A stretch of 64,000 nt of DNA, from contig NZ_OY761553.1 in the NCBI RefSeq assembly GCF_963664735.1, forward strand, positions 2,123,303 through 2,187,302, given 5' to 3'. This document shows positions 8,776-22,432 of the stretch, piece after piece. A program made the translations under genes and the position numbers. The notes beneath the pieces were generated by a model. It made no database searches, was not told the DNA's origin, and saw only the letters and a list, made by a program, of their open reading frames with translations. Source of the stretch: an uncultured Cohaesibacter sp. (GTDB lineage Bacteria > Pseudomonadota > Alphaproteobacteria > Rhizobiales > Cohaesibacteraceae). Within the stretch, counting starts at the first letter, position 1, and every line of letters begins with the position of its first letter.

Positions 8776-11700
8776 CTAGGACTTTTTGCTTCCGCCACGC
8801 ATGGCCTGCTGAATAGCCGACGCGATATCCTGATCTATGTTTGAAAAGTCCGGCATGGTGAACGGGAATTCACCATCGTCGGCTGAAGGCCTTCCCTTGG
8901 TGGCACGACCGGGCTGGACGTCATGATCCCTTGCTTCAGATTGAGTTGGAGCAGTATGTGGTGCGACTTCTGCCGGGTTGTGAATGACAGGCCCTTTTGC
9001 AATAGCTCTCTCGTTAGCAGTTTCCGCATTGGCCGCCACCTGTGCAGGGGCTGTCTGTGCGGCTTGCTCCTGCTGAGGGAGCGCCGTTGGTGTAGCCGTT
9101 GGCGTGTGTTGCTGTGGGTGGGGAGCCTGTGGAGCTGGGCCCGAATGAACATGACTTTGTTGCGGACGGACGGCGGTTTGCGCAGGCTGCGGCGCTTGAC
9201 CCTGTTGAGGACGAGGCGCTTGGGCTGCCTGAGGTGCATGCTGCTGAGCCGGTCCCTGCTGAGGGCGAGTCGCCTGAGATGCATGTGGCTGAGCCGGTCC
9301 CTGCTGAGGACGAGTCGCCTGAGATGCATGTGGCTGAGCCTGTCCCTGCTGAGGACGTTGAGCATGTGCGATTTGGCCTGCCGGTGGCCGACCGGCACCT
9401 TGAGGCACTTGTTGTTTTATATCACCGGGCCGGTGAGCTGTGGCAACCTGAGGAATTGGAACGGGCTTATCCTTGGACTGCGCCTTGGAATTGTCTTTCG
9501 CCTTCGGCTTTTCAGCAGACTGCGCACTACCAGCCTTTTCGGACTTGGCCACATAGGAGGATGCTTTTTTAAACGGATTTGAGAAAAGCGATTTGGCACC
9601 GGAAACCTTTTCTCGCAAGGATGCGCCGATCATGGCGACGGACTTGCCATCCCGAGATTGGCCTTTGCTTTCTTCTCCAGACAAGTCATCCAGTGCTTTT
9701 TGAGCAGCAGACCCGACGGCATCTTCAAGAGACCGTTCCAGATCCAACATCAAATCATCGCCGCCTGATGCCTGCTTCTGGGCTGCCTCTGCCTTCTGGT
9801 GCGGCGCCGTCACAGTAGCGGATTTCGAATCTGCAGGTTTGTTCTGATCTGGCTTTTGACCGATTGCCGGAGCGCTGGCTCTGGTAGAATTCTCCGTTTG
9901 AGCATGAGGCTGCTTTTCAACCGGCTTGGCTGAAGCATCTTGGGCAGGTTTCGTTCCTGCTGCTTTTTGCGCATCAGTTTTAGGCGGTTCGGACAGGATC
10001 TCGTCTTCCAAATCCAAAGCCAGACTTTCTGCCAGCATCGTTTCCAGAGAAGATCCATCTTTTTCTTCTCCAGAAGCACTGTCTTCAGCATGATCTGGCT
10101 TGGATGGCACGGATGCAGCCAAGCTCTTTGCTGCAATGGCCCGAGCGTGAGCCTGAGCCCGCTCGAGCTCTTCAATCTCTTTGCGGTGCTCTTCCTCTCG
10201 CCTGCGCTTCTCTTGCTCGGCCTTGCGGGCAGCGGCTTCCTGCGCAGCCTTTTGTTTGCGCGCCTGCATTTCCTGCTGCATCTGCCGCGTCAGTTCGACC
10301 TGCTTGGCCAGCATGGCCTCTGCATCATTTGCGGTCAGCGGCTTGCCAAACAGATAGCCTTGCCCCAATGGGCAGCCCATGGACGAGAGCAGCTCGACAG
10401 ATTGCTCGCTTTCCACCCCTTCTGCTACAAGGCTCAGCCCCAGATCATGGGCAAGGCCGATGATGGAATGGAGAATGACCTGTGAGGTGCCCTTGTCGTT
10501 GGAGACAAAGCTTTTGTCGATTTTCAGGGTGTCAAACGGGAAATGCTGCAAGTAGGACAGCGAAGAATAGCCTGTGCCGAAATCATCCAGCGACAGACCG
10601 GCCCCCAATTGGCGTAGACGCATCAGAACCTGAGAGGCATATTCCGGATTCTCCATCACCAGGCTTTCGGTGAGCTCCAGCTTGAGGGTTCCGGAATTCA
10701 CGCTAGAGCGCGCCAGAATGGTCTTGACGTCATTGATAAGATCATGGCGCAGCAACTGCTGGGAAGAAACATTGACGCTCATGAACAGCCGATCCATGCC
10801 TTCCAGCGTCTGTTGCCACTGGTTGAGCTGGCGCGCGGCCTGCTCCATCACATGCAGCCCCAAAGGCAGGATGAAACCGGTGCGTTCTGCGGCCGGGATG
10901 AAATCGGACGGAGGAATGAGCCCGCGCTGAGGATGGTTCCAGCGGGTGAGTGCTTCAAAGCCCTTGATCATGCGGTCTTCGAGATTGACGATCGGCTGAT
11001 AGACAATTTCGAATTCGTTGCGTTCCAGAGCAGACTGCAGATCCTTGTCCAGCGGCCCACGCAGCTTACCCTGCTGGCGAAGCGATGGCCGGAACGGCTC
11101 GATACGATCCCCCCCCATACGCTTGGCATGATAAAGCGCCAATTCGGCATCATTGATCACATCGTCTGCGGTGATATGTGCCTGAATGTCATGGATAGCG
11201 ATGCCGATGGAAACCGACAATGTCAATTCCCGTTCACCAAAGACGATTGGCGCGCGCAGAACCTTACGAGCGCTGTCCGCAAATACAGCAATACGCTCTG
11301 GCTGTTGTTCGGAAAGCAGAATGATGGCGAACTGATCACCGTAAAAACGAGCAATGGAATCCTGAAGCTTCAGCAACCGCGTCAGGCGTCGGGCAACTGT
11401 CAGCAGAATGGAGTCACCAACAGAAAGGCCATGGGTGTCGTTGATCTGACTGAATTTGTCTATATCGATCAACAGTGTCGCAGGACGCGCAGCCCCTTCC
11501 GCCTTGGTGCGTTTCATGGCCGCGTTCAAGCGGTCATGGAGCAGCTCGCGGTTAGCCAGTCCGGTGAGATTGTCACGCACGGCATCATGCAGCATGCGTT
11601 CTTCGGCTGTGCGCTGGTTGGTAATATCCAAAAGCGTGCCCACGCAGCGCACGACCTCGCCATCGGTGCCGACGACAGGGCGGGCCCTGAGCTTGAACCA

Positions 11701-20034: not shown

Positions 20035-20475
20035 TCAGCTTTTCTTGAAAGGGGCCATGCCGCGCCGCGCCAATTCATCGGCCTTTTCGTTGCCGTCATG
20101 ACCTGCGTGCCCCTTCACCCAATGCCATTCCACCTTGTGGCGCTTCAAGGCTTCATCAAGAGCCATCCATAGTTCTGCATTCTTGACGGGCTTTTTGGCG
20201 GCGGTTTTCCAGCCGTTTTTCTTCCAGCCGTGAATCCAGCCAGTGATACCGCCTTTGACATATTGACTATCGGTATAGAGAGCGACCTCGCACGGCCTGG
20301 TCAGAGCATTCAAGGCCTCGATTGCGGCAGTCAGTTCCATGCGGTTATTGGTGGTGTTGGCTTCCCCCCCACAGAGCTCCTTTTCGTGCTCACCCATGGT
20401 CAGCAAGGCGCCCCAGCCGCCAGGCCCCGGATTTCCCGAACAGGCTCCATCTGTATATATCGTTACTAGGCTCAT
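20035..20475 (-). CDS. rnhA: ribonuclease HI
   Basis: 146-residue RNase HI, which removes RNA from RNA-DNA hybrids. The four carboxylates are visible: Asp in [17 protein letters not shown], Glu in [13 protein letters not shown], Asp in [10 protein letters not shown] and the late Asp in [18 protein letters not shown] 20475 is preceded by AAAGGAG. The frame runs on upstream into the repeat array, but that extension is repeat sequence and not part of the enzyme. The first 17 or so codons, the ribosome-binding site and 5' DNA are repeated three more times upstream (20555-20935). Its 5' leader is therefore unique in this window. Confidence 0.96.
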
Positions 20476-20935
20476 ATCGGCTCCTTTGCCTGCTGGCGGC
20501 TTCTTATTGTTCTTCTCGTCCTCGCGCAAAATGCGCTGCGGGCGTAGAGGGCCAAGGCCCCGGGTTTCCCGAACAGGCTCCATCTGTATATATCGTTACT
20601 AGGCTCATATCGGCTCCTTTGCCTGCTGGCGGCTTCTTATTGTTCTTCTCGTCCTCGCGCAAAATGCGCTGCGGGCGTAGAGGGCCAAGGCCCCGGGTTT
20701 CCCGAACAGGCTCCATCTGTATATATCGTTACTAGGCTCATATCGGCTCCTTTGCCTGCTGGCGGCTTCTTATTGTTCTTCTCGTCCTCGCGCAAAATGC
20801 GCTGCGGGCGTAGAGGGCCAAGGCCCCGGGTTTCCCGAACAGGCTCCATCTGTGTATATCGTTACTAGGCTCATATCGGCTCCTTTGCCTGCTGGCGGCT
20901 TCTTATTGTTCTTCTCGTCCTCGCGCAAAATGCGC
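20422..20935. repeat. 133-bp tandem array containing the rnhA start region, 3.9 copies
   Basis: Copies begin with AGGCCCCGG at 20422, 20555, 20688 and 20821; the last is cut at 20935. Each full unit is 115 bases of rnhA 5' region plus an 18-base filler (20537-20554 in the first). I count two substitutions across copies: AAT/AAC in the gene copy versus the rest, and TAT/TAC in the outermost copy; both are silent in the rnhA reading. On the minus strand each upstream copy has AAAGGAG and ATG and encodes a 34-codon frame that repeats the first residues of RNase HI and then stops. Confidence 0.95.
20509..20608 (-). other. truncated rnhA-like leader frame (one of three, 34 codons)
   Basis: Inside the second repeat copy an ATG at 20608 opens a frame with the first 17 residues of RNase HI ([17 protein letters not shown]), then [17 protein letters not shown] and a TAA stop near 20504, 28 bases before the true rnhA start. 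It has its own AAAGGAG site. Equivalent frames start at 20741 and 20874. They could act as upstream open reading frames; they are too short to be RNase HI. Confidence 0.6.
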
Positions 20936-21073
20936 CCGTGCTGTTTACTGCTCTGTCTAGACAACCCTGCACCAAGGTGCAAGATGCTTGCTCTTGTAAA
21001 GAGGCCGGTGTAGAGCTACGCCAAACAGAAACAGTCATGCTGGCCCTGAGCCCGAAAGATCTGGAAGATACCA

Positions 21074-21913: not shown

Positions 21914-22169
21914 GCCGCAGTGCAATCAGATCTTTTTTATAGATGAGCGGAAGGGCGAATAAGATCCGCCTTTTCTGTTTGTCGATGCCTCATCGGCAAT
22001 TCCCACCGACCATTGCCGGATCGCTCGGCCCGTTTCGCACATCTTTTATCTGGAGAGGAGATCGAAACATGCAGACGGCGGCTTGACTTTACACGCCCTG
22101 CCAAGCACCTTGGTCGGGCAGGAAAAAATGTCGCGTTCCTGTCGTCACTGCCGCAACGCGGCGTGGCTC

Positions 22170-22432
22170 AAGGTCAGCGGGAGAGCGCCCGATTCCAATT
22201 TGGGGTCTTGCGCGCCGAAGGAGCAACCGCCTCGGAAACTCTCAGGCACAAGGGACCGCCCGACCAAGCGAACTCTGGAAAGCAGTCTAGAGGCAGACAA
22301 AGCTGTGCGTGGAAGGGTCTGCGCATGGTCGGTCCGCTTCAAGGCTCACCGAAGGAAGCAGCTACTGATGTGGCTATGGCGCGTTTGCCATGGTGACAAT
22401 AGTGGGAAATCTCTCAGGTTCTGTGACAGAGG
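22170..22432 (+). ncRNA. tandem glycine riboswitch controlling gcvT-gcvH
   Basis: Aptamer 1 (about 22176-22285) shows GCGGGAGAGCGCC, CGCCGAAGGAGCAACC and GGAAACTCTCAGGCACAAGG. Aptamer 2 (about 22290-22432) shows ACCGAAGGAAGCAG, a CTATGGC/GCCATGG hairpin and GGGAAATCTCTCAGG. These are the conserved words of the two glycine-binding aptamers. The 115-base gap to the gcvT start would carry the expression platform. Glycine should switch on the cleavage genes. Confidence 0.93.

Follow-up and report, generated by a model that had tools for sequence, protein, structure and literature searches.

Why should the start of the ribonuclease HI gene rnhA be written several times in a row? The question is raised by a stretch of 64,000 nucleotides (nt) from an uncultured Cohaesibacter sp. 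(assembly GCF_963664735.1, contig NZ_OY761553.1), here called the window, in which an intact rnhA gene lies downstream of a tandem array built from copies of its own beginning. Coordinates are window positions (Table 1), and the source genome is denoted G000. The original prediction for this locus regarded the repeated starts as decoys that could lower or time RNase HI synthesis. The reading favoured here, at a probability of roughly 50%, is that the array represents the rnhA instance of a family of target-matched insertion elements of about 100-160 base pairs (bp), repeated or amplified at this gene.

The repeated start region and its hairpin

The array was described as a 133-bp unit present 3.9 times, and Tandem Repeats Finder (TRF) returns the same values, with a 99% match between copies at period 133. 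Each upstream start copy consists of an AAAGGAG site, an ATG and rnhA codons 1-18; the original prediction had named these parts correctly, apart from counting 17 codons. All three copies open an identical 34-residue frame whose stop lies 28 nt ahead of the following start, and two substitutions distinguish the copies, both of them silent (TAT/TAC in the distal copy, AAC/AAT in the gene). These features, together with a unit length that is no multiple of three, had been read in the same way before. What had been taken for an 18-base filler is the left arm of a hairpin that is conserved across species.

This hairpin lies between the start copies and is formed by a left arm, GCCC..CGCCCGCAGCGC, a loop and GCGCGAGGACG. 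The CCCGCAGCGC-loop-GCGCGAGGACG part is almost invariant between start copies, while the remainder of the unit diverges, and the core pattern occurs three times in the window against none in 100 shuffles. RNAalifold recovers the main hairpin unprompted. Two-sided changes affect five pairs of the named structure, compared with 2.1 in shuffles (8 of 500 shuffles equal the observed value); for the covariation score, 3 of 500 shuffles do so. Many stem pairs are invariant. Three whole units fold no better than shuffles (z of -0.06, 0.14 and 0.50), so their stability is no evidence for a structured leader, and the support for leader structure, which is moderate, comes from the covariation of the hairpin. 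A known RNA family was rejected: there was no Rfam match at gathering score at the element in the window or in six rnhA loci, and none over the element at E<=0.1 in seven other loci, except for adjoining tRNA genes.

The gene itself is present in 17 of 18 genomes of the genus, the exception (G005) being 64% complete. The comparison of relatives' rnhA leaders proposed with the original prediction revealed recognisable upstream start copies, one to four in number, in nine of the 17, and a decayed copy in a tenth (G011). Four copies occur in G007, three in G000, two each in G014, G003, G004 and G012, and one each in G010, G008 and G001, where the ribosome site is degenerate. The leader of G013 retains the hairpin with a single start, and six leaders (G002, G017, G016, G015, G009, G006) have neither array nor hairpin. 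The total number of rnhA starts therefore ranges from 1 to 5 between species, which bears out the proposed copy-number variation at that level. Array carriers are spread over more than one clade in a tree of RnhA and a divergent neighbour, several nodes of which are weak. Within genomes, units share 97% identity (13 pairs), against 72% between genomes (140 pairs), which indicates concerted evolution.

The upstream frames differ among species in length, frame and stop; in G003 and G010 they overlap the start, and in G000 they stop 28 nt short of it. A conserved upstream peptide was rejected because frames and stops vary in this way. GCCGCC is retained in most rnhA leaders while the neighbouring spacer diverges (by eye). 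An assembly artefact, which the original prediction had left as a possibility, was dismissed as well, since G000 is assembled as one contig and independent relatives carry arrays; the array region matches the genome once. In G008 (L015:1383-1453), the hairpin alone is duplicated inside a single rnhA unit. A second RNase HI-like gene of G000 (C1:3182788-3183189), whose product is 55% identical to the RnhA of the window, has counterparts in G002, G010 and G013.

The same hairpin at other gene ends

The exact hairpin pattern was found in 9 of 61 relatives, always in the rnhA leader. Two covariance models were then used, R1 and the broader R2. Model R1 placed the hairpin in 17 of 297 genomes of the order and model R2 in 36 of 397, covering 18 of 141 genera; in the class sample, R2 matched 2 of 385 genomes, G000 itself and G426. 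Filters were strict in these runs and 15-20 candidates were scored for each genome, 15 of them in both R2 runs, which makes absences soft evidence. Across the 18 genomes of the genus, R1 gave 24 matches with E < 1e-5, every one in an rnhA leader, and three weaker ones (E 0.03-0.07) at groEL-end sites. The hairpin mostly occupies a single locus per genome. Its other sites are the starts of hisF, glyS and cimA, the 3' ends of groEL, dnaJ and ilvC, and the ends of tRNA-Gln and tRNA-Met genes, the latter with anticodon CAT according to ARAGORN and presumably the initiator. Gene names come from NCBIfam for one locus per protein class, from ARAGORN for tRNA loci, and otherwise from similarity of starts or ends.

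Several matches stand apart from these sites. In G769, element copies lie beside two tRNA-Met (CAT) genes at contig edges (L211:1-135 and L210). In G060 (L198:1501-1868), a hairpin-only tandem array with a 46-bp period follows a MarR-like frame (by eye) and is devoid of a gene-end copy; this is perhaps the hairpin amplifying alone. A loose pattern matched 74 of 385 class genomes, and it was discarded: backwards control patterns also match in many, and most matches lack a palindrome between the arms by eye. A loose pattern also occurs in at least 120 stretches of viral contigs; of the 80 such stretches among the matches listed that were given to R2, four matched weakly (E 3e-4 to 5e-3) and had no flanking duplication, and these are possibly related palindromes inside phage genes (for instance L246:5806-5841, L250:4626-4670 and L248:7871-7914). 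Two pattern matches in phage records come from one mycobacterial phage. Among plasmids there was one matching record, from Paroceanicella profunda (L334, Rhodobacterales), with the hairpin beside a tRNA-Ile gene and a 13-bp repeat, and with no clear complementary segment by eye.

A common order characterises the loci: an orphan gene end, the junction, about 10 nt, a core of about 25 nt, an A-rich linker, a complementary segment, the gene end and the remainder of the gene. When oriented by the hairpin, the loci that were read have the intact gene on the right, for 5' and 3' targets alike, with the exception of G060. The flanking duplication reaches a score of at least 36 at 23 of 30 loci, compared with 9 of 2000 control positions, by a single local-alignment score and with window lengths that differ slightly between loci and controls. 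Five loci below this score are short tRNA-end repeats (G157, G206, G426, the second G769 locus and the Paroceanicella plasmid), G246 scores 33, and the seventh is the hairpin-only array of G060. Units measure 133-137 bp at rnhA in most genomes, 123 bp at ilvC and about 121 bp at tRNA-Gln.

The complementary segment matches, in reverse complement, the part of the intact gene that surrounds the junction. A strict complementary run of at least 7 nt is present in 28 of 35 loci, compared with 4.8% of pairings across different target classes, and permutation over the nine classes reached the observed fit in 0 of 20000 trials. In those 28 loci, the run is 7-13 nt long, is located 3' of the hairpin and begins 14-20 nt past its core (searched from core+10 to +34). 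With a wider window of 0-75, most segments again begin at 15-20 nt; 34 loci were entered, three of which (G206, G157, G246) gave no core or duplication. The segment reaches beyond the duplicated part, into gene sequence otherwise not in the element. Examples of segment and target are GCCGTGGATC/GATCCACGGC at ilvC, GCATGCGGG/CCCGCATGC at glyS and CTACCGCCC/GGGCGGTAG at tRNA-Gln in G052. In G157, whose tRNA-Gln differs, the segment is CCTTCCGCCC and the target GGGCGGAAGG, the change being matched to the target.

The hisF loci reveal how a site looks with and without the element. Of 46 genomes in the genus of G193, 44 yielded hisF, and the 150 nt upstream of the gene were read at 30 loci: eight leaders have an orphan, a hairpin and a rebuilt start, one (G783) has the hairpin only, and 21 are plain. 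The pre-hisF sequence of G793 closely resembles that of G193 without the insert (by eye), which makes it an empty site. The left hisF copy of G193, the orphan, remains in its native context with no hairpin before it. This native-context orphan and the empty site in a relative together imply that material was inserted, not merely duplicated. The rebuilt hisF has a new ribosome site, supplied by the linker.

Orphan frames were surveyed at 24 loci (18 hisF, 5 glyS, 1 cimA) and located at all except G246. In 20 of the 23 located 5' loci, the orphan stop falls between -3 and +8 nt relative to the rebuilt start; the other three lie at -80 (G184), -15 (G206b) and +19 (G127). None of the 23 continues in frame into the gene; the orphans of G119, G206b and G745 are in the frame of the gene, but the stop precedes the start. 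Such an arrangement is typical of translational coupling. At the 12 of 18 loci where both copies were found, the codons that differ between orphan and gene hold 52 nt changes where the difference is synonymous and 7 where it is nonsynonymous. Such a bias would be expected if the copies had diverged while serving as starts, or if the gene copy had converted the other. Orphans are visibly decaying in G792, G705 and G796.

Weighing the origin of the array

The favoured reading supposes a unit made of a hairpin (CGCCCGCAG-variable stem-CGAGGACG), an A-rich linker, a target-complementary segment of about 9 nt, and a copy of a conserved gene end up to the junction. Insertion inside a gene end would orphan the old end and rebuild the gene from the element's own copy; at coding starts, the element would additionally provide a ribosome site and a stop-start overlap. 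The complementary segment may serve as a guide, as RNA or single-stranded DNA, that selects the insertion point. Because the rebuilt gene keeps the full target, further insertions are possible, leading to tandem units as at rnhA, ilvC and tRNA-Gln. The rnhA array could thus have grown by repeated insertion at a still-intact target or by unequal recombination, which would also be able to amplify and homogenise units. Guided insertion is the simplest account of a single hairpin that serves nine target classes, with a separate complementary segment for each class and little spread in the offset of the segment. A bolder formulation, in which a protein-free, genome-resident mobile hairpin picks its site through a junction-spanning guide of about 9 nt (a transcript or single strand), is copied with the rebuilt gene end, acquires a new guide for each new target and re-inserts to form tandem arrays, is tentative and on balance doubtful.

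A number of observations weigh against this reading. The strict run is shorter than 7 nt at 7 of 35 loci (3 nt in G079, 4 in G206, 5 in G003, G010 and G177, 6 in G246 and G012). In the junction-register test of 29 loci (G184, G246, G003 and G010 excluded), the exact hisF junction and the paired position are uncorrelated (rho -0.09, n=16), so the fine register is unproven. Left and right copies share species-specific codons in G813 and G797, which agrees equally with imported copies and with gene conversion or local duplication; many loci share ancestry, and the counts are not independent events. G060 has hairpins only. The covariation support for the hairpin is itself moderate: the count of further pair types is not elevated (147 of 500 shuffles match it), and sliding the structure by three columns still gives four pairs with two-sided changes. 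No insertion event was observed, and no enzyme emerged from comparisons of Y1 transposases, reverse transcriptases and IS110 between 38 carriers and 34 other genomes, the latter being genomes with no match where searched or with an empty hisF leader, which may hold elements elsewhere. Reverse transcriptase was found in 15 of 38 carriers and 7 of 34 others, IS110 without association in 19 of 38 and 16 of 34. Y1 shows a nominal excess (10 of 38 versus 2 of 34) that lies mainly in the genus of the window: 7 of the 10 carriers with Y1 belong to this genus, out of 12 carriers there, and 2 of its 5 non-carriers have Y1 as well.

Other origins have to account for the same anatomy. Integrative elements and prophages have attachment sites in gene ends, as in e14/icd and tRNA 3' ends, and a recombinase-driven island that once sat at each gene end and lost its body could have left hairpin and duplicated end as remains. 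One gene end is rebuilt here and copy differences are mainly in synonymous codons, the direct duplication by which an attachment site is recognised is present, and the targets, ends of genes and tRNAs, resemble typical attachment sites. This origin is nevertheless unlikely. A larger version did not come to light, in an analysis that included no search for longer insertions: at 23 of 30 loci both copies of the gene end fall within 250 nt to the left and about 320 nt to the right of the hairpin start, which leaves no space between them for an integrase-bearing element. A single hairpin family spans nine target classes, and the complementary segment continues beyond the duplication into a portion of the gene that is otherwise absent from the element. 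Passive mutation would instead have a hairpin-prone quasi-palindrome cause template switching and tandem duplication, with arrays as neutral slippage. Unequal recombination readily expands tandem repeats of 133 bp, and the variable copy number and homogenised copies agree with it. The recurrence of the same hairpin sequence across families and genes, the insertion implied by the G193 orphan and the empty site, and the narrow offset range of the complementary segment make this origin distinctly unlikely.

Regulation in cis, the wider form of the decoy-start proposal, holds that start copies, hairpins and pairing of the segment with codons past the start control translation of the downstream gene. 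RNA folding predicts leader-gene pairing, which encloses the start codon, at a mean probability of at least 0.5 in 16 of 18 loci, all chosen for having the segment, and both the GCCGCC kept in most rnhA leaders (by eye) and the stop-start overlap are in keeping with it. As a general explanation it is improbable, because the same hairpin and anatomy recur at other gene starts, at the 3' ends of groEL, dnaJ and ilvC and at tRNA ends, and no translation start is involved at 3' and tRNA ends. The variable rnhA upstream frames, the 6 of 17 genus leaders without array and hairpin, and the ordinary folding of whole units also speak against it. A role in translation may nonetheless have been added at coding starts, and an effect of the array on RNase HI translation is possible, although such a role cannot explain the whole family with its tRNA and 3'-end targets. 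Mobilisation in trans by a Y1 (HUH) transposase, as for a REP- or IS200-like single-strand DNA element, is highly improbable. Y1 proteins exist in G000 and are nominally commoner in carriers, but none was found in 28 of 38 carriers, and we know of no Y1-moved element that leaves a target duplication of comparable length. A short hairpin with a base-pairing guide does follow IS200/IS605 logic, yet the known guides (PMC6006769) are tetranucleotides 5' of the hairpin foot, compared with about 9 nt on the 3' side here.

If the mobile guided hairpin is real, guide-directed DNA insertion would gain a new class. If the segment is a guide, this would be a minimal, gene-free bacterial system of DNA insertion targeted by base pairing that repairs the gene it hits, and the enzyme behind it would open new insertion chemistry. 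Even without a guide role, the family accounts for a peculiar type of duplication in alphaproteobacteria, that of gene starts and gene ends. For annotation, a short upstream frame that encodes the N-terminus of HisF, GlyS, CimA or RnhA may be an orphan of the element and not a gene.

Table 1. Features of the rnhA locus, in window positions.
Feature	Position	Strand	Basis or remark
Tandem array, 133-bp unit x 3.9	20422..20935	-	TRF; read in rnhA direction from 20935 down to 20422
rnhA, ribonuclease HI, intact gene downstream of array	20035..20475	-	NCBIfam 1.2e-74; start codon at 20475
Start copy 1 (gene-proximal), 34-codon frame with AAAGGAG site	20504..20608	-	begins at 20608
Start copy 2, 34-codon frame	20637..20741	-	begins at 20741
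Start copy 3 (distal), 34-codon frame	20770..20874	-	begins at 20874
Hairpin copy closest to rnhA, core GCCCGCAGCGC-ATTTT-GCGCGAGGAC	20512..20561	-	covariance-model match
Second hairpin copy	20645..20694	-	covariance-model match
Third hairpin copy	20778..20827	-	covariance-model match
Truncated hairpin (right arm and inner stem) before most distal start copy	20917..20939	-	by eye
Target-complementary segment AGCCGCCAG in rnhA leader	20493..20501	-	complementarity search
Further copies of the AGCCGCCAG segment	20626-20634, 20759-20767, 20892-20900	-	positions by eye
Complementary stretch CTGGCGGCT within intact rnhA (gene nt 53-61)	20415..20423	-	straddles end of duplicated part
Possible promoter TTGCAC-16-CTAGAC immediately upstream of array	20955..20982	-	by eye

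Elements resembling the possible promoter (CTAGAC/CTAGAT) recur in many relatives by eye; a sigma-70 consensus scan found no promoter upstream of the array. Elsewhere in the window, a glycine riboswitch aptamer (RF00504, 47.9 bits, 22168-22268, plus strand), which also occurs in G013, precedes a gcvT-like frame (by eye). A 45-bp tandem repeat of 2.9 copies (9227-9357, 94% match by TRF) may be coding, because 45 is divisible by three.

Relation to known systems

A literature search among open-licence papers found nothing similar to the anatomy of the element. Palindromic elements of Rickettsia are inserts that can be read through in open frames; unlike them, the present element lies at gene ends, duplicates the end and leaves the gene rebuilt. 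Nor is its anatomy described in the available parts of accounts of HUH, TIGR-Tas and bridge-RNA systems (PMC6006769, PMC12045711, PMC11208160).

With REP/REPIN and IS200/IS605 elements and their Y1 enzymes (RAYT, TnpA), the element shares a short imperfect hairpin and a short pairing sequence. The guide of IS200/IS605 and REP elements is a tetranucleotide directly 5' of the hairpin foot that pairs with the cleavage site (PMC6006769). The segment described here differs in lying 3' of the hairpin and measuring about 9 nt instead of 4, and the element in carrying a gene-end copy and having, in most genomes, a single locus; no search was made for a separate 5' tetranucleotide, and the Y1 counts given above reveal no cognate transposase. 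The IS110 bridge RNA likewise chooses targets by short pairing around the insertion point, through two split guides that pair with opposite strands, plus a recombinase (PMC11208160). By comparison, the element has one continuous complement and a long duplication, and no recombinase was found, in line with the IS110 counts. TIGR arrays also consist of tandem units with guides of about 9 nt, some with stem-loops; they lie beside a Tas gene, and their guides are dual and flanked by box C/D motifs (PMC12045711). At the element, such motifs were not recognised by eye, Tas genes were not searched for, and the segments match the host's own adjacent gene, unlike those of TIGR arrays.

The resemblance to integrative elements lies in a gene end that is duplicated and rebuilt, with differences that are mainly synonymous. 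The element departs from them in its size of only about 100-160 bp with no genes seen, in a single hairpin that serves many targets, and in a complementary segment that enters the gene.
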